Shown here piece by piece: positions 2 through 20,148 of a stretch of 20,148 nt of DNA. This DNA is from a virus. The notes beneath the pieces were generated by a model, which was given only the letters and a program-made list of their open reading frames with translations, was not told where the DNA came from and made no database searches. Location of the stretch: positions 1 to 20,148 of the IMG/VR virus record IMGVR_UViG_3300042392_000523. One strand, 5' to 3'. How positions within the stretch are numbered: the stretch's first letter is position 1; each line of letters starts with the position of its first letter. The translations under genes and the position numbers were made by a program.

Positions 2-1231
2 CCGCGTATGTACAAGGGAGCGATTGAATCTTTGGTGCGTAGGATGATTCCTTTCACTGACTTGATTCAGTTGACTCACTTGAAGTTACAACAAGTAATC
101 GCTCGTACAGTACCTGATGGTGTATTCATTGATGCCGATGGTCTTAACGAAGTGGATCTTGGTACAGGAAACGCGTACAATCCAGAGGATGCTTTGAGAT
201 TGTACTTCCAAACAGGTAGTGTTATCGGTCGTAGTTACACCCAAGATGGGGACTTCAACAATGCAAGAGTGCCTATCACTCAGTTGACTTCCAACTCTGG
301 TGCTGCTAAAACGCAGATGCTAATCGCAAACTACAACCACTACATGGACATGATACGCACCGCTACAGGACTCAACGAGGCCCGTGACGGTAGTAACCCA
401 GACCCGAACTCATTGGTTGGCTTACAGAAGTTGGCTGCGCTTAATTCAAACACAGCAACTCGCCACATCTTAGAGGGTGGTCTATACATATTCAGATCAA
501 TCGCGGAAGCATTGACCTATCGTGTGGCTGACATCCTTGAGTACGCTGATTTCAAAGATGACTTCATCAGTCGTATCGGCAAGTACAATGTGTCTATCTT
601 AAACGAAATCAAGGACTTGTACATTTATGACTTTGGTATTTTCTTGGAGATAGCACCGGACGAAGAGGAGCGCGCTCAACTTGAAGCCAACATACAGATG
701 GCTTTATCTAAGGGTGACATAAATCTTGAGGATGCAATTGACATCCGCGAGATCAAGAACCTTAAGATGGCAAACCAATTGCTGAAGGTGAAGCGTGTCA
801 AGTTGCAAGAGCAGAAGGACAAGATGGCTATGATGCAGCAACAGATGACTGCACAGCAGAACATGGAGTTGCAACAGATGGCTTCACAGTCTGCCCTTCA
901 GAAGATTCAAGCAGAAAGCCAAGCCAAGATGCAGATCAAACAAGCCGAGGTGGCTTTCCAAATTGAGATGTTGAAGGCAGAGGCAGGTCTTAAGCAGCAG
1001 TTGATGGCCGAGGAGTTCAGATACAACATGACTCTTGCTGGCATGGACGAGCAGCAGATCTCTAGCAGAGAGAAATCTAAAGAAGACGCTAAGTCAAAGA
1101 GAATAAGCCAGCAGAACAGCGAGCAATCGAAACTAATTAATCAGCGCAAGAACGACTTGCCGCCAATCAACTTCGAGTCCACAGAGGATTCTCTTGATGG
1201 CTTTGATTTGTCAGTGTTCGAGCCTCGCTAA
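2..1231 (+). CDS. Portal protein, C-terminal part (5' truncated by window edge)
   Basis: The reading frame is open from the first bases of the window, so the ATG at 8 is probably an internal Met. The visible 409 codons look like the end of a phage portal protein, the dodecameric ring at the DNA-entry vertex. Counting from the Met at 8, residues 15-35 are a long helix of the crown/stem type. Residues 119-144 hold the Thr-Gly-Leu-Asn-Glu stretch followed by the Asn-Pro-Asp-Pro-Asn-Ser-Leu-Val-Gly loop that I associate with portals of crAss-like and related Bacteroidota phages. Residues 220-250 resemble the segment on which neighbouring subunits pack. Residues 260-350 are a Gln/Met/Lys-rich coiled coil, which could line the barrel inside the capsid. 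Position just upstream of a scaffold-like gene and the capsid gene fits. The assignment rests on remembered family motifs and gene order, not on a search. The subfamily is less certain than the role. Confidence 0.78.
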   Translation, partial: PRMYKGAIESLVRRMIPFTDLIQLTHLKLQQVIARTVPDGVFIDADGLNEVDLGTGNAYNPEDALRLYFQTGSVIGRSYTQDGDFNNARVPITQLTSNSGAAKTQMLIANYNHYMDMIRTATGLNEARDGSNPDPNSLVGLQKLAALNSNTATRHILEGGLYIFRSIAEALTYRVADILEYADFKDDFISRIGKYNVSILNEIKDLYIYDFGIFLEIAPDEEERAQLEANIQMALSKGDINLEDAIDIREIKNLKMANQLLKVKRVKLQEQKDKMAMMQQQMTAQQNMELQQMASQSALQKIQAESQAKMQIKQAEVAFQIEMLKAEAGLKQQLMAEEFRYNMTLAGMDEQQISSREKSKEDAKSKRISQQNSEQSKLINQRKNDLPPINFESTEDSLDGFDLSVFEPR

Positions 1232-2391: not shown

Positions 2392-3852
2392 ATGGCAGTT
2401 TTATCCACCCCGACCTTTCAGCTGCAGCCGAGTGCGCAGCAGGTCCCCCTATCTACTAACTACATTACCGACTTCAACTTCTTGAACCAGTATCTTCCTG
2501 ATACTTACGAGAAAGAATTTGAGCGTTACGGTAATCGTACTATCTCTTCTTTCTTGCGTATGGTTGGCGCCGAAATGCCATCAAACTCAGATATGATCAA
2601 ATGGGCTGAACAAGGCCGTTTGCACATCAAGTACATTAACTGTACTACAACTGTTTTGACTACAGCCGATACTGCAACTTTCACTATCAATGACGTATTG
2701 GTTCCTAACCGTGCTGCTATTGGTTTGACTGCTGGTACTATCGCTTTGCGTATTGGACAAACTGTTGTAATCACTCCTAACGTTGCTGGTCCTACTCAGA
2801 ACAAAGGTATCATTACCGGTACAAACCCAACCGCCGGTACTATCGATGTTGCCTTCTACGAAGCAGCCGGTATGACCAACGCCTTGGCTACTAACACTTT
2901 CACTATCTTCATCTACGGTTCTGAATTCAAAAAAGGAACTAACGGAATGCAAGGTTCTTTGGAAGCAGAAGATGAAATCTTCGACAACAGCCCTATCATC
3001 ATTAAGGACAAGTATGCTGTATCTGGTTCTGACATGGCTCAGATCGGATGGATTGAAGTTACTACTGAAAACGGAGCATCTGGTTTCTTGTGGTACTTGA
3101 AGTCTGAGCACGAGACTCGTTTGCGTTTCGAAGATTACTTGGAGACCGCTATGATTGAAGCAGTTCCTGCCGTTAGCGGATCAGGTGCTGTTGCTGCTGG
3201 TTTCAAAGGTTCTGAAGGTGTGTTCTATGTTGTGAACGACCGTGGAAACGTTTGGGGCGGTGGTAACCCAACCACTTTGGCTGACTTCGATTCTATCGTT
3301 TCTCGTTTGGACAAACAGGGATCTATCGAAGAGAACGTAATCTTCGTAAATCGTGATTTCAGTTTCGACATCGACGATATGTTGGCTACCTTGAATGGTT
3401 ACAATGGATCAGGTGCTTCTAACGCTGCCTCTTTCGGTTTGTTTGAGAACGACGTGAACATGGCATTGAACCTTGGGTTCAGCGGATTCCGTCGTGGTTA
3501 TGACTTCTACAAGACAGATTGGAAATACCTAAACGATCCTACAATGCGTGGTGGTTTGACTTCATCTACTACAGGTGCAAGTACTGCAAACGTTATCACT
3601 GGTTTGTTGGTTCCTGCTGGTTCTACAACTGTTTACGATCAGGTATTAGGTAAGAACGCCAAGCGTCCTTTCTTGCACGTTCGCTACAGAGCAACTGCTA
3701 CAGAGGATCGTCGTTATAAGACTTGGATCACAGGTTCTGCCGGTGGTGCTGCTACTAGCGACTTGGATGCTATGGAAGTTAACTTCTTGTCTGAGCGTTG
3801 TGTATGTACCTTGGGTGCTAACAACTTCGTATTGTTCCGTTACGGTGCTTAA
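2392..3852 (+). CDS. Major capsid protein
   Basis: This 486-residue protein forms the capsid shell. The N-terminus (residues 1-80) reads like the major capsid proteins of crAss-like and uncultured Bacteroidota phages that I recall: a Gln/Pro/Ser-rich arm, then Asn-Gln-Tyr-Leu-Pro-Asp (32-37), Glu-Arg-Tyr-Gly-Asn-Arg-Thr (44-50) and Phe-Leu-Arg-Met-Val-Gly-Ala-Glu-Met-Pro (54-63). Residues 84-180 are rich in Thr/Val/Gly and predicted beta, consistent with an insertion domain on a HK97-type fold. Residues 190-240 would carry the spine helix region, and the C-terminus (450-486) is a beta-rich axial-type end. Codon choice is extreme: of 21 Arg codons 19 are CGT, one CGC and one AGA, whereas neighbours use AGA/AGG freely. 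That fits very high expression. The gene is followed by a strong intrinsic terminator 37 bases after the stop codon. No pro-domain or protease is visible here. Confidence 0.87.
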   Translation: MAVLSTPTFQLQPSAQQVPLSTNYITDFNFLNQYLPDTYEKEFERYGNRTISSFLRMVGAEMPSNSDMIKWAEQGRLHIKYINCTTTVLTTADTATFTINDVLVPNRAAIGLTAGTIALRIGQTVVITPNVAGPTQNKGIITGTNPTAGTIDVAFYEAAGMTNALATNTFTIFIYGSEFKKGTNGMQGSLEAEDEIFDNSPIIIKDKYAVSGSDMAQIGWIEVTTENGASGFLWYLKSEHETRLRFEDYLETAMIEAVPAVSGSGAVAAGFKGSEGVFYVVNDRGNVWGGGNPTTLADFDSIVSRLDKQGSIEENVIFVNRDFSFDIDDMLATLNGYNGSGASNAASFGLFENDVNMALNLGFSGFRRGYDFYKTDWKYLNDPTMRGGLTSSTTGASTANVITGLLVPAGSTTVYDQVLGKNAKRPFLHVRYRATATEDRRYKTWITGSAGGAATSDLDAMEVNFLSERCVCTLGANNFVLFRYGA

Positions 3853-4721: not shown

Positions 4722-4751
4722 AGAGGGGGCAAACGCTCCCTCTTTTTTTTT
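4722..4751 (+). terminator. Intrinsic terminator before the connector/tail block
   Basis: A nine-base-pair GC-rich stem (4722-4730 with 4735-4743, one G-T wobble) has a four-base AAAC loop and runs into nine T residues (4743-4751). It is a canonical Rho-independent terminator and separates the capsid-side genes from the tail genes. A TAnnTTTG promoter element begins three bases after the T tract. Confidence 0.9.
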
Positions 4752-6640: not shown

Positions 6641-9600
6641 ATGGCGAACACTACAAGGAATTTCATAGCAGGTAAAATGAATAAGGCCGTCGATGAACGC
6701 CTTATTCCTGACGGGCAATATATCGATGCTCTTAATGTTCGTATGGGTGCCACTGAGCAATCAGAGATAGGTGTCATAGAGAACTCAAAGGGTAACGTAT
6801 CCTTGACCACATTGACCTACATAGATGGCACGCCATTGAGTGCAGATGCGAGATGCATAGGATCACTTGCTGATGGAGAGAAAGAAACTATCTATTGGTT
6901 TATCCATGACTCCAACTTCCCAGTTGGTGCCACCGGCAAACTTGATATGATTGTTTCCTTCAATGCGTTAACAAACATATTAACCTACCACATCATCAGT
7001 ATCAACGATGGTAATGGTGACAATACCACACTTAACTTTGATCCAAAATATTTAATCACCGGTATTGACATAGTAAAGACAGGTAATCTCGATGAGAGTT
7101 TGTTGTTTTTTACTGATGATTACAACCCACCAAGGTTCATCAATGTACGCAGAGGATATCCAAATCCAGATCCCTCCACAAACGTAGATGAATTCAGTGC
7201 TGAGTCAATCCTTGTTGTAAAGAAACCACCAACGGAGGCCCCATCAATCAACCCCATTCTGACAGGAGGGCAAGATAACTTCATAGAGACTAGATTCATT
7301 TGCTTTGCTTATCGATATAGGTACGCAGATGGAGAGTACTCAGCAACATCCCAATTCTCAGCACCAGCATTTTCTCCAAACCCATTTGAATTCACTATAG
7401 ATAGTTACTTGAATGAGGGCATGGTTAATAAATACAATGCTGTTGAGGTTACATACAATACTGGTGGCCCGCTTGTAGTTGGTTTTGATTTGCTCTTTAA
7501 AGAAGCTGATGGCAATGTAATTCGTGTTATTGATAAACTAGATAAGACTGGCGGAGACTTTGAAACTGTTACATTTACATTCAACAACAGTAAGATATTC
7601 ACTATTTTACCACAATATGAATTGCTCAGGCTCTATGATAACGTGCCATTGCTTGCAAAGGCTCAGACATTGATGGGTAACCGCTTGATGTACGCCAACT
7701 ATGTGGAGGGTTATGACTTGATTGACAAGGATGGCTTTGCTGTGAAGCTGGAGTACTTTACCGAACTAATAACTGAGGTGATAGGTGAAACAGAGATAGT
7801 TGATTCAACAGCCGTTGGTGTGTACAATATCGACGGAGCACAATCAATTACCGATGCTACATTTGAGATTGATCTTGCGGGAATAAACTTAATAGCGGGA
7901 TCATCAATAAGCATAGAGTTTACATTCAGTCACTCATTGTTTAGCGGTGGCACGCCACCCGCGGAAACTACGACAAATGTATCTTTAACCTTTTCATTCT
8001 CTTTGGCCGTAGCGTATACATCAGTGTATGCCTTGGCAACTAGCCAAGAATTTCAAGAAGCAGTCGGCACAATCGCTAATATCAAGCCTGTATTCTCCGC
8101 AACTCCCGGAGCCCAAACATCGTGTGACGGAGTTACTCTTACAGATAGAGTGAACTGCGCTATACCAAATAACTTGGATTCTTTAATCAAGTTTGCTAGT
8201 GGTATAAACGCAGTCGCAGAACCCATTGCTATCATTACGAGTCCTGCTAGTTCAGTAATTGGATTTCAGTTAATAGCCATGGAGTTTGTTGATAACACCA
8301 CGACGCCAACTGTACAAATCTATGAGTACTATGGAGTAACGTTTGTAGAGGCTACGTTCCAAGAGATTTCTAATCCAACAAGTCTTCACAGCAACAGAGA
8401 TTATGAGATTGGTATCGTGTATATGGATGAATTTAATCGCGCATCTACCGCTTTAGTTAGTGAGCAAAATACCATTCACATCCCTTGTGGCTACTCTGGG
8501 AATAAGAACTCTATACAAGTACAAATACCCACGTCACAGGTAGCACCTGTTTGGGCTAAGAGATATAAGTTTGTAATCAAGCCAGACCAAGAGAATTATG
8601 AGACCATTTACACATCTATATTCTTTCTTGACCCATATTCAAATGATGCGTACTTTCTATTGGAAGGCGAGAATTCAAAGAAAGTTGAAACAGGAGACAG
8701 ATTAATTGTAAAGGCTGACACTTCTGGTCCTACTCAGCAATGCGTATACGCTACGGTTCTTGAGAAAGAGTCTAAAGCATCAGACTTCCTTACGATACCA
8801 AGTACATTGGATCCATCGGTGAATCTTCCTGTGCCATCAGGCGTTTACATGAAGATCAACCCAAACAGTTTCAATGTGGTTAATGATGAGTTGGCTATTA
8901 TAGCGCCGGGTAAAGTACAAGTCGACGAAGATGATGGCGGCGAATTTGTGTTGGCTTTTTACCCAATGAACAGATTTGATACAGCAACATCTACGTATGT
9001 AGATTATGATGTTCCCGCTGGAAGTCGTATTCGTTTGTATTTCAAGTTCGAACGTAAGGGAACCGGTGATGGAAATAAGAACTGTGAAAGACGTATCTAT
9101 ACGCTAGACAAAACTTTGGTAGCATCTGCTAACTATGACAACATGTTTGATTGGTGGAATGGCGACAATGTTCAAGTGATATTGAATGATGGTATACAGG
9201 ATGTAGGCGGAGGAGAATGCGATGTAGAAAACGATTATATACCAACAATAACGAATACTCTTGGGGATATTCCCGAAGCCGTTTGTACCAACTTCTATAG
9301 ATTCTTCAGAAATACTGATACTGCTAGCCCACAATTCAATACCCTACAATTAATGGTCAGGGGTACAAGGGCGTGTAGAAATATATTAAACAAAAAGAAA
9401 GCAAGATCAAGCGTCACTATAAACATAGAAGTGTTTAGGGCTGAGACTACTTGCATATTTGAAAGCGAACCACTTGATGCATTGCCAGATATCTTCTTTG
9501 AGAATGACATGTCTTTTGCAATAGATATAGATGGCAACCACCTAGGTGATCCAGCCAATCAGGATATCAATCAGGATATAGCCCTAGGGGTTACAGGCGT

Positions 9601-11323
9601 AATACATACAATGTTCTTCAACTGCTTTGCTTTCGGTAACGGAGCAGAGAGTTACAAAATTAGAGATTCTATCGTTGGAAGACCATTTAATCTAGGTAAC
9701 AGGGTTGTTTCAGTGTCTGAGCAAGATTACAAAAAAACAGACAGGTACGCAGACATTACTTATAGTGGCATATACAATGATGAATCAAACCTCAATAGAT
9801 TGAATGAGTTCAACTTAGGACTATTAAATTTCAAGCCATTAGAGGATTCATTTGGACCTGTATATATACTGGATGGTCGTGTAACCGATGTTCTGGTACT
9901 TCAAGAAGATAAAATATCCTATGTACTCGTAGGAAAAAACTTGCTATCAGACTCTGTTGGTGGCGGAGTGGTTGTTTCAATTCCAGAAGTATTAGGAAAG
10001 CAGATCGCTAGAGTTGAGAAGTATGGCATCAGTTTCAACCCAGAGAGTTATGTCAATTGGGGATACGATAGATACTTTACCGATGTAAAGCGCGGTGCTG
10101 TATTACAATTGAGAGGTGACTCATATGCGAACGATCAGTTGGCTGTGGTTTCTGAATTGGGAATGAGAACTTGGTTCCGTGATGAATTCATTACATCCTT
10201 CAATACTCAGAAACTTGGAGGATACGATCCCTACATGAGTGAGTATGTATTGGTTTCTAATGAGATTGATCTTCCTGTGGTAGAGCAATGCTTGGCTTGT
10301 GGAGTAAGTCAGACGTTTAGTTTCTTCTTACCCGGTGGATCAACATTCAGTTACTGCGTAAATGCAGGGCCATACGTTGGTGACTTGAATATAAACTACA
10401 CCGCTTCAGTTGATCCGGGTGCTACGTTCAATATCGAGGCTGACTACAATTCAAATGTCTATCAGACTGGATTCATAAATACATCTGGCGTATTGAGTTT
10501 CAATAAGAACTCTGGCAGCGAGGACGTTGTAAGCCTACAAATCACAACCACTGGCATCGTTACATTAACAGTGACTGTTAATTGCCCTGTGCTACAGATA
10601 ATGAGCGTAATCGAGGTAATGCTTACGAGCGATAGTGATTCGGGTCAGACCATCCATGCCCAATACAGGTATGCAGATGGCGCTTACATCTCTCCATTGC
10701 AATCCGCCGGCGTTACGTTCATCTCTGGAACAGCCAATCCGTTGGTTTCAAGATACAACGTAAGCGTAGGCCCACAAGGTGCAGGCAATATACCAACAGA
10801 CAACAGCACGGTTAGCATCATCTCGAACAAATTATCTACAGATACATTTGATTTTGATGCAGCCACTGATAAGTTTAGATACTTGAGAACAAACACTTTG
10901 TACTTAAATAACTCTGTTGACATCAGCGCTTTGCTTGTTGCGTCTAACTTGGCTACGCCGATTGTTACAACTGGCAATGTAAACCAATCTTCATTCAACT
11001 CTGGAACATTGGATGCTTACTTGTATTTGATTTGGGATCTAAGAGCATCAGCACCTGCTGAGTTGTGCTTCTCAAACACAACCATCGAAGATGTATGTTG
11101 CAGTTGTAGTCCTTGCGTTGACCCATGTTCTTACTATCAGTTTGAAAACATAGGAGCAACAACCGGGCAAGTGGATTACATCCCATGCGCGGGCGGACCA
11201 ACTATACCTATCATGATCCCTGCGGGTGAGCCAGCAAACGTGTGTGCTCAGAACGGAACGGCTCCGATAGTAATCTCAGGTGACATCACAATCACAGTAC
11301 TTCAAGATTGTGGATGTCCATAA
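6641..11323 (+). CDS. Very large tail stabilization / nozzle-type protein
   Basis: This is the largest complete gene (1560 residues) and probably builds the tail tube end or nozzle under the connector. The N-terminus has the Phe-Ile-Ala-Gly-Lys-Met-Asn-Lys-Ala-Val-Asp-Glu-Arg motif (8-20), then Gly-Gln-Tyr-Ile-Asp-Ala-Leu-Asn-Val-Arg (26-35). These are hallmarks of proteins annotated 'stabilization protein' in crAss-like and uncultured Bacteroidota phages. Residues 40-400 are repetitive beta sequence, compatible with a propeller-like core as in podovirus nozzles. An Arg-Tyr-Ala-Asp-Gly-x-Tyr motif occurs at about 227 and again at 1343, suggesting related domains at both ends. A conserved late block includes Gln-Glu-Asp-Lys-Ile-Ser-Tyr-Val-Leu-Val-Gly-Lys-Asn-Leu-Leu (about 1088), Phe-Asn-Pro-Glu-Ser-Tyr-Val (about 1133), and Leu-Gly-Gly-Tyr-Asp-Pro-Tyr (1192-1198). 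The last 140 residues look added: a Cys-rich stretch (five Cys in eleven residues near 1486-1496) and a terminal domain ending Cys-Gly-Cys-Pro that also ends the next gene product. Exact ring assignment is inferred. Confidence 0.75.
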   Translation: MANTTRNFIAGKMNKAVDERLIPDGQYIDALNVRMGATEQSEIGVIENSKGNVSLTTLTYIDGTPLSADARCIGSLADGEKETIYWFIHDSNFPVGATGKLDMIVSFNALTNILTYHIISINDGNGDNTTLNFDPKYLITGIDIVKTGNLDESLLFFTDDYNPPRFINVRRGYPNPDPSTNVDEFSAESILVVKKPPTEAPSINPILTGGQDNFIETRFICFAYRYRYADGEYSATSQFSAPAFSPNPFEFTIDSYLNEGMVNKYNAVEVTYNTGGPLVVGFDLLFKEADGNVIRVIDKLDKTGGDFETVTFTFNNSKIFTILPQYELLRLYDNVPLLAKAQTLMGNRLMYANYVEGYDLIDKDGFAVKLEYFTELITEVIGETEIVDSTAVGVYNIDGAQSITDATFEIDLAGINLIAGSSISIEFTFSHSLFSGGTPPAETTTNVSLTFSFSLAVAYTSVYALATSQEFQEAVGTIANIKPVFSATPGAQTSCDGVTLTDRVNCAIPNNLDSLIKFASGINAVAEPIAIITSPASSVIGFQLIAMEFVDNTTTPTVQIYEYYGVTFVEATFQEISNPTSLHSNRDYEIGIVYMDEFNRASTALVSEQNTIHIPCGYSGNKNSIQVQIPTSQVAPVWAKRYKFVIKPDQENYETIYTSIFFLDPYSNDAYFLLEGENSKKVETGDRLIVKADTSGPTQQCVYATVLEKESKASDFLTIPSTLDPSVNLPVPSGVYMKINPNSFNVVNDELAIIAPGKVQVDEDDGGEFVLAFYPMNRFDTATSTYVDYDVPAGSRIRLYFKFERKGTGDGNKNCERRIYTLDKTLVASANYDNMFDWWNGDNVQVILNDGIQDVGGGECDVENDYIPTITNTLGDIPEAVCTNFYRFFRNTDTASPQFNTLQLMVRGTRACRNILNKKKARSSVTINIEVFRAETTCIFESEPLDALPDIFFENDMSFAIDIDGNHLGDPANQDINQDIALGVTGVIHTMFFNCFAFGNGAESYKIRDSIVGRPFNLGNRVVSVSEQDYKKTDRYADITYSGIYNDESNLNRLNEFNLGLLNFKPLEDSFGPVYILDGRVTDVLVLQEDKISYVLVGKNLLSDSVGGGVVVSIPEVLGKQIARVEKYGISFNPESYVNWGYDRYFTDVKRGAVLQLRGDSYANDQLAVVSELGMRTWFRDEFITSFNTQKLGGYDPYMSEYVLVSNEIDLPVVEQCLACGVSQTFSFFLPGGSTFSYCVNAGPYVGDLNINYTASVDPGATFNIEADYNSNVYQTGFINTSGVLSFNKNSGSEDVVSLQITTTGIVTLTVTVNCPVLQIMSVIEVMLTSDSDSGQTIHAQYRYADGAYISPLQSAGVTFISGTANPLVSRYNVSVGPQGAGNIPTDNSTVSIISNKLSTDTFDFDAATDKFRYLRTNTLYLNNSVDISALLVASNLATPIVTTGNVNQSSFNSGTLDAYLYLIWDLRASAPAELCFSNTTIEDVCCSCSPCVDPCSYYQFENIGATTGQVDYIPCAGGPTIPIMIPAGEPANVCAQNGTAPIVISGDITITVLQDCGCP
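11126..11320 (+). other. C-terminal Cys domain, copy 1 (end of large tail protein)
   Basis: Residues 1496-1560 of the large tail protein follow the pattern Cys-x2-Tyr-x3-Asn, then Val-Asp-Tyr-x2-Cys-Ala-Gly-Gly, then Val-Cys-Ala-x-Asn, then Cys-Gly-Cys-Pro at the very end. The same arrangement of Cys, Tyr, Asn and Gly residues ends the next protein (12455-12631). I recall similar endings on tail and fibre proteins of other Bacteroidota phages, where they would act as interchangeable tips. Confidence 0.65.
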
Positions 11324-11335
11324 AAACAAAACAAA

Positions 11336-12634
11336 ATGGCAACTAGTTCAACATACTACTTAAACGGACCATCACTTGGGTCAGCGACCGCTGTGTTCAC
11401 TGACCCCGACTTGACTCTCTGCGCACCCGATGGGTTTTACTTTGACGGAATAATCGTAAGAGAACTAGTCTCTTGTGTATTACTTCCTCAGCAACTTTGC
11501 CCTGCTTGCGCGGATGCCTGTGGTGGATTCCCAATCTCTGAGTTGTCTGCTACCGGTGGATACTACGAGATTGCCATCCAATTAGGATCAGCAACAGGTG
11601 CAATTGTTATTGAGTTCGATCCATATACAGTGCCTTTAGGTATTGAGGTAATTTATGATGGAGTGGTTTATAACAAGATGAGTTCAACAAACTTTGGGTA
11701 CTTAGCGGGTGCAGCAAACTTGCCAACATACGTTGGTGAAACTGCATCTGATTGTGGTATCGTTGCAAACAGCCCTCACGTATTAGATAAGTATGTGTTC
11801 TATGGAGGAGTGTTTACCGTAACTGCATTCCCTGAAACTGTGAATGTATTATCAAGCCAATTGGATTTGACAGCCACTAACCCCGGTCCATGCTTTATCG
11901 TTATACCAAAGACTTCGCCATCACCAACGACAATGCAAATCAATATAATCGCTGCGTGCCCATTGTCTCAGTTTGATGTAACTATTGCTTGCCCCGTACC
12001 ATTGACGACTTTCTCTAGTAGTGATGTCAATGCAAGTGCTCTTCTTGCGTGTGCCGACTCTATTGATCAGCAGTATTTTGTGGAATATGTAAACGGTGGG
12101 GCTGGTACATTTGGTCTTTACGACTGGGTATTCCAAGATGTCAACGGAGAATTCGTTCTCCCTGATGGCTTCTACCATTCACCAAGTTCATGCCCTCCAC
12201 CAAACGATTGGTTCCAAGTTCAGAATGGAGTGATCGTTCAGTTCGGAACATGCGTTTATGGAAACAACTACCGCGTGTCTCGTTGTGGTGATGGACAAGA
12301 ATTGATTGTATCATCTGTAAGCCCAGTTAACCTAGGTGACATTGTCACATTGACCGGTGTAGTGGATTGCGTATACTCTGTCATTGCCTTTAGCGGAGGA
12401 ACAGCAGTAGATAGTATCAATGCAGTAATACCATTTGTAACCTGTGACGACATATGTAATACATACGACATCACTAACAACACATTGTTGACTGAGGGTG
12501 TTAGTTACCTTGATTGCGCTGGCGCTCCTCAGAGCACTACAGTTATTCCGGGTGCTACGGCTACGATATGTGCAAAAACAAACTCAATAGTTACTAACTT
12601 AACGCCTGTATTCACAGTGTGTGGTTGCCCATAA
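11336..12634 (+). CDS. Cys-rich tail tip / adhesin candidate
   Basis: This 432-residue protein is almost entirely beta-type and unusually rich in Cys for a phage protein. Residues 6-50 are an N-terminal domain with Tyr-Tyr-Leu-Asn-Gly-Pro-Ser-Leu-Gly-Ser-Ala-Thr-Ala-Val-Phe-Thr-Asp and Asp-Gly-Phe-Tyr-x-Asp-Gly-Ile-Ile-Val-Arg-Glu. I recall this motif from Bacteroidota-phage tail proteins. Residues 55-62 form a Cys cluster (Cys-Pro-Ala-Cys-Ala-Asp-Ala-Cys). Residues 72-180 hold a second beta domain. Residues 195-225 carry Val-Ile-Pro-Lys-Thr and a Cys-Pro-rich link. Residues 370-432 are the terminal Cys domain shared with the preceding protein. It starts 12 bases after the large tail gene with an A-rich leader. 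Likely a distal tail or host-contact component; attachment of cysteine-rich domains to two adjacent products supports a shared assembly site. No enzyme motif is visible, and receptor binding is only an inference. Confidence 0.62.
   Translation: MATSSTYYLNGPSLGSATAVFTDPDLTLCAPDGFYFDGIIVRELVSCVLLPQQLCPACADACGGFPISELSATGGYYEIAIQLGSATGAIVIEFDPYTVPLGIEVIYDGVVYNKMSSTNFGYLAGAANLPTYVGETASDCGIVANSPHVLDKYVFYGGVFTVTAFPETVNVLSSQLDLTATNPGPCFIVIPKTSPSPTTMQINIIAACPLSQFDVTIACPVPLTTFSSSDVNASALLACADSIDQQYFVEYVNGGAGTFGLYDWVFQDVNGEFVLPDGFYHSPSSCPPPNDWFQVQNGVIVQFGTCVYGNNYRVSRCGDGQELIVSSVSPVNLGDIVTLTGVVDCVYSVIAFSGGTAVDSINAVIPFVTCDDICNTYDITNNTLLTEGVSYLDCAGAPQSTTVIPGATATICAKTNSIVTNLTPVFTVCGCP
12443..12631 (+). other. 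C-terminal Cys domain, copy 2 (end of the 432-residue protein)
   Basis: Residues 370-432 follow Cys-x3-Cys-x2-Tyr-x3-Asn, then Val-Ser-Tyr-Leu-Asp-Cys-Ala-Gly, then Ile-Cys-Ala-Lys-Thr-Asn, then a terminal Val-Cys-Gly-Cys-Pro. Spacing of the key residues agrees with the end of the upstream 1560-residue protein, although the DNA has diverged. This indicates an old duplication or exchange of a terminal module rather than a recent copy. Confidence 0.65.
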
Positions 12635-13473: not shown

Positions 13474-13884
13474 ATGGCACTCCATGCTAGGCTACTGACA
13501 CCCACAGATTACGATACCATTTTAGTAGAATGGTGGGGTGATTGGGGATGGGCAGCGCCACCACAAGACTTCCTCCCAGAAGGTGGCTTGAGTGGTATCA
13601 TGGTATTGGACGACGACACACCTGTGTGTGCCGGCTTCTTTTATACCACCAACTCTAGCGCGGCATGGGTGGATTGGATCATATCGAACAAGCAATATAA
13701 AAAGAAACCCGAGAGAAAGGAAGCGCTATTGATGTTAATTGAAATATTGACAGCGACTTGCAAGAACCTTGGGTTTAAATATGTGTACGCACTAATCAAG
13801 CACCCCTCATTGGTTAACGTGTATAAGTCAATTGGATACGAAGAAGGGGATAGTTATAACAAAGAAATGATAATCAAACTTTAA
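13474..13884 (+). CDS. GNAT-type N-acetyltransferase-like protein
   Basis: This 136-residue protein has the size and element order of a small GNAT-fold acetyltransferase, which would transfer an acetyl group from acetyl-CoA to an amine. Residues 41-58 form the central strands (Gly-Ile-Met-Val-Leu, then Cys-Ala-Gly-Phe-Phe-Tyr). Residues 65-72 (Trp-Val-Asp-Trp-Ile-Ile-Ser-Asn) match strand 4. Residues 79-98 are the helix after the CoA-binding loop, residues 101-108 (Phe-Lys-Tyr-Val-Tyr-Ala-Leu-Ile) match strand 5, and Val-Tyr-Lys-Ser-Ile-Gly-Tyr (116-122) matches the usual C-terminal motif. The pyrophosphate-binding loop normally reads Gln/Arg-x-x-Gly-x-Gly/Ala; here it is Lys-Lys-Lys-Pro-Glu-Arg-Lys-Glu-Ala, so activity or cofactor binding may be altered. 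The substrate is unknown. A promoter-like element precedes it and a four-base gap links it to the next gene. Placement among virion genes suggests action on a phage or host protein during assembly or takeover. Confidence 0.68.
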   Translation: MALHARLLTPTDYDTILVEWWGDWGWAAPPQDFLPEGGLSGIMVLDDDTPVCAGFFYTTNSSAAWVDWIISNKQYKKKPERKEALLMLIEILTATCKNLGFKYVYALIKHPSLVNVYKSIGYEEGDSYNKEMIIKL

Positions 13885-13888
13885 AATC

Positions 13889-14805
13889 ATGGCAGCAATA
13901 ACAGCAGCGACAGCAGCAACAATCTCAGCAGTAGGAACAATAGCAGGTACCGCAGCAGCAGCAGGTGGTACCTATATGTCATTTAGGGGGGCGGCCAAGC
14001 AAAGAAAAGCGGCCGACACCGCAAGAGCAGAAGCGGACAGGCTTATGCAAGAAGCAAGAAAAAGAGCAGAAGAGAATGTGTACAAAGCATTGTCGCTATC
14101 TAAAGAACCATATGATAGGGCTAGGGAGTCTGCACTTGTGCAAGGCGCTCAAGCCATTGAAGCAGGGATGGAAAGCGAAAGAGGCTCTGCGTCTACCGCC
14201 GGTCGTGTACAGATGGCTCAGAATGAAATGCAAAGAGACATTGCAAACGAGCAGACACAACAGATTCAAGCATTAAATATGACGATAGCCGAGGAAGATG
14301 CTAGATTGAAAGACTTTACTGCTAATGTAAATATGACTGAGGCAGCCGGGGCTCAATTAGCAGCGAAGGATGCTGATGAAGCCGCAGCAGCATTTACAGC
14401 CCAAGGAGTACAGGGTCTTGGGGCAACAGCAAAAGTTATTGGAGACGCTCTTCCGTTGTACTACAAGACAGCAGGAGCACAGCAATACTCTAAGTTGATT
14501 GACCAAGGTACTGCTGCTGGTCTTGACATGCAGGGTATACAGAATTCTCTAGAAAAAGCTGCTAGCAACAATCCAAAATATGCAGCGTTTAAAGGAATTG
14601 GATCGAAGACTCCGCAGGAGGCACAAGTAATAATAAGCGGTTCTGATCTTGGTACATTAAGGGAGTTGGTAGAAGGTAATCCATTCCAAACATCGCGCCC
14701 CATACCTGCTCCGCAGGAGATTGCGCAACTTCCTCCAAATCTTTTTCCGAAGAATCGTCAATACACCCCGAACTCCAACGTGAACCCATTTGATATATAC
14801 GGAAG

Positions 14806-14809
<4 letters not shown>
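13889..14809 (+). CDS. Internal virion / ejection-type protein (Ala-rich, coiled coil)
   Basis: This 306-residue protein has the profile of the small internal core protein of podoviruses (T7 gp14-type). Residues 1-31 are an Ala/Gly/Thr-rich hydrophobic helix that could enter a membrane. Residues 33-75 are a highly charged coiled coil (Arg/Lys/Glu/Ala). Residues 85-165 continue as a Gln/Ala/Glu-rich helix. Residues 170-235 are mixed, and residues 265-306 are a Pro/Asn-rich tail. No signal peptidase site follows the hydrophobic segment. The order short hydrophobic protein, mid-sized soluble protein, giant protein matches the internal-protein order of T7-like phages, which supports a role in passing DNA through the cell envelope. 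I see no residue-level signature linking it firmly to gp14. A minor tail protein is the alternative. Its stop codon overlaps the next start by four bases (ATGA), implying coupled translation. It is the only gene here ending in TGA. Confidence 0.58.
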
Positions 14810-16659
<1,850 letters not shown>

Positions 16660-16661
16660 TT

Positions 16662-19600
16662 ATGCCAAACTTAAAAGAAATATTGAAAGAGTTTGTAGCC
16701 ACAGCAAATGCAGGTGAATACAAAACAGAAGGTGAATTGTTGTCAGCGTTTCCAGAGTTAAGTGGGTACAATTCAAACACATTAAAAGAGTTTGTATCCA
16801 CTGCAAATGCTGGTCAATATGCAAACGAGGATGAGTTGTTAGCAGCGTTTCCCGAGTTCGGCCAAGAAGTAAAAAAAAAAGAAGAGTCAGTTCCTCTGTG
16901 GCTTCAAAAGCAAGAACAGCAACCAAAGCCAAAGCAAGAACAAACACTCCCGTTTTTGGAATCCAAGCCTTCGGGTATTTCTTTGGGATCTCAAAGAGTT
17001 CCTGAGACTGCCCCTATGTTTGAGGCTCCTCCAATGAGGACCCCCGAAGAAGCACAAGCAATAGTAGAAGCACCGGAAGACCAATCAAAAGTAGCAGAAT
17101 CTGAACAGGGTTGGCTGCTGAACACTGTATCATCCCTTGATAGGGGATTTGCCAAAAACTTAATAGGCAATCCAGTAAAGGGAATGGGTACGCTCCTAGA
17201 GGGGGCAACGTCAAAAGTATTTGGAGGCACAGGAAAGGGCCCAATCAGTGATGCGTTAATAAGTTTTGGCAACTACTACAACAATGCCATTGACGAACTC
17301 ACTCCTCAAGATGAAGACTTTAAGAATACTTTAACAGATCAATTTGGCCAAGCATTCGGTCAAGTTGCATCGTTGATAATGACAGGTGGTATTGCTGGTG
17401 CAACTAAACAAGGTGTTGCAGTTGCGGCTACTGCTCCAACAGGTATCATTGGTACTGTTGGTGCAGCGGGTAAGCAACTAGCTTCTACATTGGTAAGCCC
17501 AGTAGCAATCAGCGGTGGTCTATCTATGGGTCAAGCAGAGTTTGACAGAGCAAAAGAAGCAGGTGCTACAGACGAACAAGCATACGAGATATTCTTCAAG
17601 AACGCCGCTGTTGGTTCAGTGCTAGAGCAGATTCCTGTTATGCAGTTCTTGAAACGATTCAACCAATCAACAGCCGGCGGTGTAACGAACTACATCAAGA
17701 CCAAAGGTGTTGCAGGATTGACAGGTGGATTCGAGGAGATGACTACTGAGGTTCTTCAACAATTATACTCCAACAAAACTGCTCAAGAAGTATACAACAT
17801 AAACCAACAACTGCTCGAGGGAGTGGGTGAGTCTGGTGGTGTAGGCTTTGGAGTTGGTTTCATCTTGAACGCGATGGGCGCTAGAGTGAAGAAGTTAAAG
17901 AAGGAGGGCAACACAGCAGAGGCTCAGTTGATTGAAAGCCAGATAGATAATTTTGAGTCTGCTCCTCCAGTTCCGCCACCTACATATAGCATCAATGGTA
18001 TAAAGATAGAGGCTCCAGAAGTCATCAATCAAATGATTGACAATATGGATGCGACAGATTTGGCTAACTCAAATATAGAAATAACCAATGATCCAGAGTT
18101 GAGTGTGAAGATGCAGGACAAGATGGTGACATCTTCCATCAAGGAGGAAGTCCGTTCAGCAAATCCGGATATAGATGAGGATACATTGGATCAGATTACC
18201 GCGTTAGAAAAAGAGCGCAAGAAGTTCGAAGGCAAGAAGACGCAGTCAGCCAAGGACAAACTTGCTTCCATCAATTTACAAATAAAAACACTACAAGAAA
18301 ATGCCGTTCAAAAGCCAAGCACAGAGGAAAGCGTGTTACGCGCAGAAGAATCCCAAGTGGGATTGCAAGAAGTGGGAGAAGGAAACGCCCAAGTCCAAGC
18401 CCCTGCCGAAGAAGTTGTCAAAGAAGAAGTAGTAAGTCCTGCTATCGCCAAGATAGAAGAAAGACGACAAGAAGAATTGAGTCGAGATGAGAATGTAGAA
18501 CTTTTATATCCATTAACGCTCGAAGAAAATCCAACAAGAGAACAGAAAGAACGTCTTGCCAAAAACGAACAAGATAAAAAAGATAGGCAAGAGAGAAGGG
18601 ATAAGATAAACGCAGAGTATGATGCGCAGAGAGAGGTTCAACTTTCCAAAGAGAAAGCAGAGCCAATTACCGACGAGGAATTGCAAGCGGAATTCGATCG
18701 TATCAGCATTCCCGAGGATACGGAAGCAGTGTCTCCGGCGACACCGGTACTCAGCGAAGAGTCTCAAAAAGTAAAGACCCAATTAGAGGATTTTAAAAAT
18801 ACTTTTGATGAAGCATACAATGCAGTGTACCCAAGATATGATACACCCCAAGCCAAAAGATCTGCTATTGCCAAGTCTAAGAGAGCGATAAAGAAATTAC
18901 AGCAAATGATGGGTTTTGATATTGGGGCCTATGGGGAGTTGGATGCAAATCAAACCAAAAAAAGAGAATCGCTTTATTCATTGAGGGAAAATAAAGATTA
19001 TGATTCATACGATCAGATGGTTGCCGCCTATCAAAAAGATGTGGCCAACGGCAATCAATCAGATTTAGTTACTTCTATTAATACATTACTTGGTATTGCA
19101 CCTATAGAGGTAGCAGCACCGGTAGCAAAGGCTGCTCCAAAAGTATCTTCGAAGACACCAAAGGCTAAGAGCGTTCCTATTCCTGTGGCCATCCCCAAGC
19201 CTACTGCACCTGCGCCCAAGCCTGTTGCTGTGGTATCACAACCCGCGCCAAGGATACAAGGACCAGAGGCATTACGTCAAGAGTATACCAATAAGATTAA
19301 CGATGTAAGAGTAAACAAAGACAAGTCTCGTACACCAAAGCAAATTGAAGAAAGGATTGTAGAACTCAGAGCCGAGTACAAGAAACTCGATGCTGAGATG
19401 ACAGCGCCAAGACCGAAGGCAGAACCTGAAGCAAAGTCAGCACCCAAGAAAGCAGCGCCTATACCAAAGGCAGAAGCAAAACCTGTACCAGTGGTATCAA
19501 AGAAAGATCAAGCAGAGATTAAGAGACTTGAGGATGAGATAGATTACTATCAACGTCAGATTGAAGATGCGACTGAAGAACTAGGAAATACTAATTATAA

Positions 19601-20148
19601 CTACGAACAAGTCGAAGCAGAAGTCGAAAAAGAAAGAGAGGAATTAGAAGGAAAGAAAATGTCAAATCAGAAGAGAGAAGACGCAACAGACGAACTCGAT
19701 GCCAAACTTGACACAGCCGAAAGTGAGCGTGACTCCTACTTAGAGCAATACAATGATCAATTAAAAGAGGCAGAGAAGGAAAAGAGGAAAGCCGAAAAAA
19801 AACTTGCCAAGTTGCAAACCAAGCAAGTCGAGACTAAGGCAGAGCCTACTTCAGTAGTACAGGAAGACGAGCCGTCATATGAGGATATCAAAGACATTGA
19901 AGAAATATATGACATCCTTGACGAGGATGAGGATGAGGATGGTGATGATTTTGAACCTAAGTCAGAGAGCTTTCTTAAAAAATCCTCAAAGATATTGGAT
20001 AATGCTAGCAATGGTATAAATAAGTTCAAACGTGAGAACTTGTCTATGGGTCTACCCGTAGTAACAGCAGAGGCTATTGTTAAAGCCTTAAAAGTATTGG
20101 TGAAAGGTGGTATCTTATTGGAAGAAGCAATCCCAAGGGTGGCTACTA
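16662..20148 (+). CDS. Giant multidomain internal/cargo protein, 3' end beyond window
   Basis: From the ATG at 16662, two bases after the upstream stop, the frame stays open to the window end: 1162 codons without a stop. An AAGGA at 16652-16656, five bases before the ATG, is a rare Shine-Dalgarno-like element here. Residues 8-66 hold two tandem copies of a 26-residue motif. Residues 67-130 are a Gln/Lys/Pro-rich linker. Residues 150-420 are a membrane-active-looking region with Gly/Ala/Ile/Val-rich segments (about 228-295 and 390-407) and a Gly-Gly-Phe-Glu-Glu-Met-Thr-Thr-Glu-Val-Leu-Gln-Gln motif (354-366). Similar blocks occur in large internal and polyvalent phage proteins. Residues 500-760 are charged helices. 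Residues 815-870 are Pro/Ala/Lys-rich. Residues 945-1060 are a long coiled coil, then an acidic run near 1085-1097. The last residues (Ala-Ile-Val-Lys-Ala-Leu-Lys-Val-Leu-Val-Lys-Gly-Gly) start a new helical domain. Probably injected or packaged with DNA. Enzymatic domains, if any, lie beyond the window. Confidence 0.72.
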   Translation, partial: MPNLKEILKEFVATANAGEYKTEGELLSAFPELSGYNSNTLKEFVSTANAGQYANEDELLAAFPEFGQEVKKKEESVPLWLQKQEQQPKPKQEQTLPFLESKPSGISLGSQRVPETAPMFEAPPMRTPEEAQAIVEAPEDQSKVAESEQGWLLNTVSSLDRGFAKNLIGNPVKGMGTLLEGATSKVFGGTGKGPISDALISFGNYYNNAIDELTPQDEDFKNTLTDQFGQAFGQVASLIMTGGIAGATKQGVAVAATAPTGIIGTVGAAGKQLASTLVSPVAISGGLSMGQAEFDRAKEAGATDEQAYEIFFKNAAVGSVLEQIPVMQFLKRFNQSTAGGVTNYIKTKGVAGLTGGFEEMTTEVLQQLYSNKTAQEVYNINQQLLEGVGESGGVGFGVGFILNAMGARVKKLKKEGNTAEAQLIESQIDNFESAPPVPPPTYSINGIKIEAPEVINQMIDNMDATDLANSNIEITNDPELSVKMQDKMVTSSIKEEVRSANPDIDEDTLDQITALEKERKKFEGKKTQSAKDKLASINLQIKTLQENAVQKPSTEESVLRAEESQVGLQEVGEGNAQVQAPAEEVVKEEVVSPAIAKIEERRQEELSRDENVELLYPLTLEENPTREQKERLAKNEQDKKDRQERRDKINAEYDAQREVQLSKEKAEPITDEELQAEFDRISIPEDTEAVSPATPVLSEESQKVKTQLEDFKNTFDEAYNAVYPRYDTPQAKRSAIAKSKRAIKKLQQMMGFDIGAYGELDANQTKKRESLYSLRENKDYDSYDQMVAAYQKDVANGNQSDLVTSINTLLGIAPIEVAAPVAKAAPKVSSKTPKAKSVPIPVAIPKPTAPAPKPVAVVSQPAPRIQGPEALRQEYTNKINDVRVNKDKSRTPKQIEERIVELRAEYKKLDAEMTAPRPKAEPEAKSAPKKAAPIPKAEAKPVPVVSKKDQAEIKRLEDEIDYYQRQIEDATEELGNTNYNYEQVEAEVEKEREELEGKKMSNQKREDATDELDAKLDTAESERDSYLEQYNDQLKEAEKEKRKAEKKLAKLQTKQVETKAEPTSVVQEDEPSYEDIKDIEEIYDILDEDEDEDGDDFEPKSESFLKKSSKILDNASNGINKFKRENLSMGLPVVTAEAIVKALKVLVKGGILLEEAIPRVAT
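16683..16859 (+). repeat. Tandem 26-residue protein repeat at start of giant protein
   Basis: Copy 1 covers 16683-16760 (residues 8-33) and copy 2 covers 16782-16859 (residues 41-66), a 33-residue period. The copies share 19 of 26 residues: Leu-Lys-Glu-Phe-Val-x-Thr-Ala-Asn-Ala-Gly-x-Tyr, then Glu-x-Glu-Leu-Leu-x-Ala-Phe-Pro-Glu. Each reads as two short helices joined by a Gly turn. I have a memory of similar tandem motifs at the start of other large Bacteroidota-phage proteins. Confidence 0.85.

Follow-up and report, generated by a model that had tools for sequence, protein, structure and literature searches.

A swappable N-terminal tag and a nucleotide-conserved A-run in a putative giant ejection protein of Flavobacteriia podoviruses

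Podoviruses such as T7 (gp14, gp15 and gp16), N4 (gp52-51-50) and the N4-like phage DEV (gp73-72-71) close their virion gene block with a small, a medium and a giant protein in that order, and for DEV these three syntenic products have been identified as ejection proteins (PMC10925440). In crAss001, large cargo proteins (gp45, gp46, gp47, gp49 and gp50) follow the muzzle gene, and polyvalent proteins (Iyer et al. 2017, PMC5512222) are giant, modular and carry swapped payloads. Here we analyze a block of similar layout in IMG/VR virus record IMGVR_UViG_3300042392_000523; the window, that is the whole stretch of DNA analyzed, is the entire record of 20,148 bases, and its right edge is the contig end. 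The block closes with two companions of 306 and 617 amino acids and a giant open reading frame (ORF), which we read, with a probability of roughly 60%, as the N-terminal half of a Flavobacteriia podovirus giant ejection or cargo protein, including the explanation offered below for its tag and a slippage site. New here is a swappable tag joined to the giant's body, in all relatives checked apart from Panino, by a run of nine to eleven A residues (A9-A11) that is conserved at the nucleotide level. The elements concerned are (pLDDT, predicted local distance difference test):

16662-20148, plus strand: giant ORF, first 1162 codons, stop-free to the contig end, with about 1,150-1,550 amino acids expected beyond it (ORF call, complete relatives)
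16683-16757, plus strand: tag copy 1, amino acids 8-32, LKEFVATANAGEYKTEGELLSAFPE (repeat alignment; helix-turn-helix in the model, pLDDT 60-70)
16782-16856, plus strand: tag copy 2, amino acids 41-65, LKEFVSTANAGQYANEDELLAAFPE (repeat alignment; helix-turn-helix in the model)
16871-16880, plus strand: A10 homopolymer, codons GTA AAA AAA AAA G (V-KKK), the proposed programmed slippage site at the seam of tag and body

The original prediction, made from the letters of the window, had noticed the tandem N-terminal repeat, which we confirm, but had overlooked the A-run behind it, the most unusual feature. The two copies align with an internal score of 98, whereas none of 200 shuffles exceeds 34 and other parts of the protein reach no more than 33; the copies are identical at 59 of 75 nucleotides. 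A doubled short motif opens 19 of the 21 giants tested, scoring above all shuffles, with control windows near background; the real sequence was tested at all split points and the shuffles at coarser ones, a small bias against far larger margins. The motifs fall into at least six unrelated-looking types, from 28-residue helix-turn-helix units to 'NIPSPxEFYG' or 'ELDEFGIPxKK', and they reassort among bodies: L057 carries the window's tag on another body, and L003 and L024 carry the window's body behind other tags. We propose that the tag may serve as an exchangeable docking module, usually built from a doubled motif.

Giant-type tags also head an unrelated protein of 472-490 amino acids, encoded between the homologs of the two companions (L038, 1583-2998; L039, 740-2209); at the same interval in L047 (2-1180) lies a partial, cut protein whose body is related to that of L039. 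A co-swapping pattern between the tail of the 617-amino-acid protein and the tag was looked for and not found, a back-translated tag pattern search gave no match, and PDB sequence searches with one relative and one tag returned nothing convincing. A match of one tag to the designed toroid protein dTor_9x57R (E 7e-6) was judged a chance resemblance of designed helical repeats.

Directly after the tag, an A9-A11 run is present in 27 of 27 tabulated giants, including that of elemo, usually as GTA AAA AAA AAA G; the window's A10 lies above the nine A or T residues taken to mark a slippage site. The bases on either side of the run vary, but its length and register are preserved. Coding-strand A-runs of such length occur almost nowhere else in 509 kb of loci, and among 62 other KKK motifs in the same genes a single one is encoded by an A-run, that one being the true tag end of L042. 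L055 keeps A10 despite 57% GC and an AAA share of only 15% among its Lys codons. Searches of 2.9 million viral contigs gave the same picture. All 25 matches to the pattern GTA-A9-GANGAR-NNN-GT lie at tag ends, 50-94 codons past the start (22 scored as doubled; 3 of the 25 contigs were already known). A codon-neutral search for L[IVM]GVKKK[DE] found AAA AAA AAA at 50 of 50 tag junctions, four of them assigned by eye (cut at the contig end or with a GTG start), and in none of 24 unrelated proteins (Fisher p 6e-20, a value that ignores relatedness); the codon before KKK is GTA in 50/50 tag junctions versus 9/24 non-tag proteins. Because the codon-neutral search separates the two sets in this way, the constraint on the run, judged from these sequences, is one on nucleotides, beyond the encoded peptide.

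The only other A/T run of at least nine in the window is T9 at 4743-4751, at the start of a ring-protein gene annotated from 4750. In the relative G001, an A10 (L014, 19314) precedes the GroEL-like gene, within AT-rich sequence that is apparently non-coding.

Runs of nine A or T cause bacterial RNA polymerase (RNAP) to slip with high efficiency, and Thermus thermophilus dnaX obtains its two products, tau and gamma, by such transcriptional slippage, with both shifted frames stopping soon (PMC5009743). The giants resemble dnaX in having a run of at least nine, a full-length ORF in register and, in all of them, stops soon past the run in both shifted frames; the window gene differs in being a phage virion gene, in which slippage is predicted from sequence. 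No conserved downstream RNA structure that could act as a frameshift stimulator was found (mean z -0.25). Because RNAP slips at nine A or T, the shifted frames stop soon as in dnaX and no RNA structure is conserved, transcriptional slippage appears to be the best explanation for the run, ahead of a recombination seam, ribosome pausing and phase variation.

We therefore lean, by a small measure, toward programmed slippage that yields two products. RNAP (or the ribosome) would slip on the run directly past the tag; the in-register product would be tag plus giant, and the slipped product a tag-only protein of about 45-155 amino acids (114 or 124 in the window). The proposed logic is that of Lambda G/GT, where short and extended forms share their N-terminal part and a set ratio serves assembly. 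In Lambda, however, the switch is a ribosomal -1 shift, whereas the giants carry a homopolymer without conserved downstream RNA structure. Tentatively, the scheme may extend to a whole group of Bacteroidota podoviruses, with poly-A slippage setting the ratio of tag to tag-giant and the tag acting as a general cargo address label, exchanged between proteins and phages at the A-run. More speculative, and on balance rather doubtful, is that tag-only and tag-giant forms would compete for the same docking sites, control the stoichiometry and so fix the number of bulky giants per particle.

In the deposited genomes of phi13:2, phi18:3, phi46:3 and phi19:3, the run is A9 and marks the point where the differing frames of tag and giant come together. 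Four Baltivirus/Bacelvirus genomes annotate the tag as a separate ORF of about 87-103 amino acids, out of frame with the giant, the junction of the frames being an A9 run:

L010, 16119-16394: separate out-of-frame tag ORF
L066, 11310-11633: separate out-of-frame tag ORF
L065, 11119-11439: separate out-of-frame tag ORF
L063, 12056-12376: separate out-of-frame tag ORF

Unlikely, although the best surviving of the rivals, is that the run is a recombination seam, a short sequence common to many phages at which tags are exchanged, any slippage product being irrelevant. Tags do reassort among bodies, and identity changes across the run: between the window and L024 it is 0.23 in the 30 nucleotides before and 1.0 in the 30 nucleotides after, and between the window and L057 it falls from 0.87-0.90 within the tag (two blocks, further upstream) to about 0.3 past the run. 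A stretch of ten bases is short for homologous exchange, however, and an A-run tolerates in-register errors poorly; its persistence at the GC content and AAA usage of L055 calls for selection of its own, and a seam sits badly with constant length and register amid varying flanks. Somewhat less probable is selection on KKK as protein, as a charged hinge or protease site, with AAA AAA AAA stalling or slowing ribosomes, which would give the tag time to fold or dock first, and a single product being made. KKK is indeed kept alongside its nucleotides, and modeling predicts a small helical unit for the tag, but the constant preceding GTA, which stretches the run to 10 past the lysines, goes unexplained. 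We rate lower again a phase-variation tract, in which replication slippage would toggle the giant in the phage population. Homopolymers of 9-11 are typical contingency tracts, so the length fits, as do the four deposited genomes with A9 and an out-of-frame giant. All other giants are in register, however, and a particle-borne virion protein is a poor candidate for an off-switch, the phi18:3 giant being present in particles according to a tandem mass spectrometry (MS/MS) note.

The preferred reading, a tagged giant with programmed slippage at its tag end, also has the giant ejected or carried as cargo. The original prediction had placed it among podovirus ejection or cargo proteins, a placement that the block position and organization uphold. 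The giant closes the virion block, following the positions of the small and medium ejection proteins. The order 306-617-giant recurs in almost every locus reaching that far (about 20 distinct contigs) and parallels that of the N4 and DEV trios and of crAss001 gp45-46-47. GenBank records state MS/MS detection for three syntenic proteins each in phi40:1 (gp099, gp100 and gp101) and phi18:3 (gp120, gp121 and gp123); these notes concern the phi40:1 and phi18:3 giants rather than the window protein itself, to which both are tied via elemo and synteny and phi40:1 additionally via tag and A-run. A further pointer to ejection may be amino acids 301-400 of the window protein, which align to residues 332-433 of the N4 virion RNAP (vRNAP; hhalign 85%, E 7e-6; reversed control E 0.12), with a phrog_2206 match of 2e-6 in the window and 6e-11 in L024. 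The N-terminal region of N4 vRNAP is described as involved in injection (Iyer et al. 2017, PMC5512222). Like podovirus ejection proteins, the giant is mostly helical. We consider its delivery into the host cell very likely: it would be packed in the particle together with the 306- and 617-amino-acid proteins and delivered ahead of the DNA. A virion-packaged RNAP or other early enzyme in the style of N4 or crAss phages, RNAP being among the domains that the prediction had suggested searching for, is highly improbable and was rejected as an identity: the block position is the same and the N-terminal segment resembles N4 vRNAP, but the N4 mini-RNAP profile gave E values of at least 0.03 in all giants, the crAss-type motif D.DGD matched only inside the window's acidic run, with no true motif in the giants studied, and the 63.8-kb relative G001 has no evident large ORF of RNAP type.

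Several points weigh against the tagged, slippage-controlled ejection protein. The evidence from the window phage itself is DNA sequence, and the companions show no sequence similarity to N4 gp51 and gp52. No tag-only peptide has been reported in virions, and no MS/MS note accompanies gp122, the tag ORF that stands by itself in phi18:3. The homopolymer counts are non-independent, the sequences being related (43 distinct upstream sequences among the 50). The out-of-frame A9 genomes represent either the reverse arrangement, in which slippage would be needed to make the giant, or a homopolymer miscall, and the Baltivirus/Bacelvirus case could be such a sequencing error. The C-terminal block described below is known from relatives, the window contig ending before it. 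Finally, the run is absent from the giants of N4, LIT1, EE36, crAss001, phi14:2 and Panino, which suggests that it is confined to a single group of Flavobacteriia/Bacteroidota podoviruses. The tag duplication is likewise not shared with crAss001, tag and A-run go unmentioned in the sections of PMC5512222 available to us, and no published description of the arrangement was found in the open-access literature, which is weak evidence.

Beyond the run, the giant comprises the following parts, any structure models resting on shallow alignments:

16887-17105, plus strand: proline-rich linker, amino acids 76-148 (composition)
17106-17978, plus strand: Gly/Ala-rich all-helical region, amino acids 149-439, with unrelated sequence in its place in distant members (low-confidence model)
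17562-17861, plus strand: segment of amino acids 301-400 resembling N4 vRNAP residues ~332-433, the N-terminal injection region (hhalign, phrog_2206)
17979-18329, plus strand: folded coupling domain, amino acids 440-556, bb-aa-b-aaa (model, pLDDT about 75-82)
18330-19847, plus strand: variable middle with a charged stretch, a small helical domain (amino acids ~691-850), Pro/Ala/Lys linkers and a coiled coil, without recognized enzyme
19848-20147, plus strand: acidic run and start of the segment that precedes the relatives' C-terminal block (C-block) of about 1,200 amino acids

The frame is stop-free over its 1162 codons (16662-20147, plus strand) and far beyond chance, relatives being 55-87% identical over amino acids 140-600 and encoded by single ORFs of 2,289-2,735 amino acids. 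It had been allowed that the frame might stop shortly after the window; all complete relatives continue far past that point. Because the five complete close relatives span this length range (L003, 2486 amino acids; L024, 2503; L057, 2735; L058, 2501; L059, 2289), about half of the window's giant is predicted to lie beyond the contig end; L004 (2544) and L026 (2496) are similar in length. Extension of the contig by exact end match among viral contigs gave no match, and no relative was found in the genome contigs searched. Further parts that the prediction had listed are present: Pro/Ala/Lys linkers (chiefly amino acids 851-990), a charged coiled-coil-like stretch (991-1062) and an acidic run (1063-1110, 42% D+E). 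Its Gly/Ala-rich, membrane-like region holds as a helical region (amino acids 149-439, 14% G, 11% A) but lacks a classical transmembrane span (maximal 19-residue Kyte-Doolittle mean 1.43). The coupling domain is the most widely conserved part of the N-terminal half, its end being common even to MW202828 and elemo. The model of this half was overall too weak for a fold search (pLDDT 48).

The conserved parts would be the short tag, the coupling domain and the helical C-block, with an exchangeable payload between them that bears enzymes in some relatives and is apparently empty in the nearest. The middle section is exchanged among relatives. Pfam searches recognized no enzyme domain in the window part or in the closest relatives (L003, L024, L004 and L026), and no transglycosylase or lysozyme in about 25 members, which sets the family apart from podovirus ejection proteins with lysozyme, transglycosylase or RNAP domains. 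Among distant members, the zincin motif HEXXH occurs with its expected context (11 of 29 members, compared with 0.1 by shuffling), as do DUF7178, DUF3293, phage L5 gp82-like, nucleotidyltransferase-like and GNAT-like domains. The predicted design of tethered modules with more sequence downstream therefore stands, given swappable modules and longer relatives, but enzymatic modules are confined to the more distant ones. Because no enzyme was recognized in the window part or in its nearest kin, and distant members have various ones, the conserved function is probably structural or ejection-related, with enzymes optional.

The middle modules of relatives also include phrog_3170 (L004, amino acids 958-1136; L026, 1025-1095), a domain shared with a 'large polyvalent protein' of a Planktothrix phage, with mycobacteriophage hypothetical proteins and with cyanophage proteins annotated variously as lysin, RelA/SpoT or large polyvalent protein.

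The window stops just short of the C-block. In the relatives this block has two sequence types, which past a shared start are distantly related (hhalign 88%, E 3e-6; reversed control E 0.22), and both are found behind window-like sequences. Its model is all-helical (pLDDT 69; predicted template modeling score 0.61), and in Foldseek it matches the ends of other phage giants, several of them annotated as polyvalent (PolyVal ART, E 2e-8; large polyvalent proteins, E 2e-7; PolyVal/LPD entries, E 2e-8 to 6e-4), as well as an elemo 'structural protein' (E 1e-6). A PDB fold search with the same model gave no match (best E 0.07). In their predicted fold, the last ~1,100 amino acids of the relatives resemble the ends of annotated phage polyvalent proteins. 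The polyvalent-protein search proposed in the prediction thus succeeded for the relatives' C-block fold, with the zincin motif as a further likeness, whereas, of the two or more effector domains per chain expected of a polyvalent protein, none was recognized in the window part or nearest relatives.

Upstream, the giant is preceded by:

2-1231, plus strand: portal protein, C-terminal part (phrog_6547)
2392-3852, plus strand: probable major capsid protein (MCP; phrog_13704 virion structural protein; 71% identity with MW202828)
6641-11323, plus strand: muzzle protein (PF25731, E 2.5e-10)
13889-14809, plus strand: 306-amino-acid companion with a hydrophobic Ala/Gly N-terminus, in the small ejection protein position (compare T7 gp14; phrog_13764 virion structural protein)
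14806-16659, plus strand: 617-amino-acid companion in the medium ejection protein position (compare T7 gp15; gene position)

The block thus runs from the partial portal and probable MCP through ring-type proteins and muzzle to the two companions and the giant. By MCP and ring proteins, the nearest named phages are MW202828 (Manatee Spring, 69-71%), Maribacter phage Panino and Elemovirus, followed by Pachyviridae and Pervagoviridae of Cellulophaga and Tenacibaculum; the muzzle is homologous to that of crAss001, whereas these MCP and ring matches are to phages outside Crassvirales. The muzzle and the next protein (11336-12634) end in similar Cys-rich segments (YIPCAG...DCGCP and YLDCAG...VCGCP), which suggests a common C-terminal domain. 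A 136-amino-acid protein of the block (13474-13884) has an MW202828 counterpart annotated as acetyltransferase; the window copy has no Pfam match.

For annotation, a miscounted run leads gene callers to split or mis-start such genes. How phages pick the proteins that they load beside their DNA, and how many, is a largely open question, and most crAss and N4-like cargo is not resolved in structural studies, as far as the portions available to us describe. A portable N-terminal tag found on giants, and sometimes heading another protein with an unrelated body, offers a concrete candidate for a loading signal, and the A9-A11 run behind it, conserved as nucleotides, suggests how copy number might be set by simple means. 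Both ideas are testable in the existing isolates phi38:1, phi40:1, Gundel_1 and elemo. Should the tag prove to be such a signal, chosen proteins could be directed into phage particles with it.

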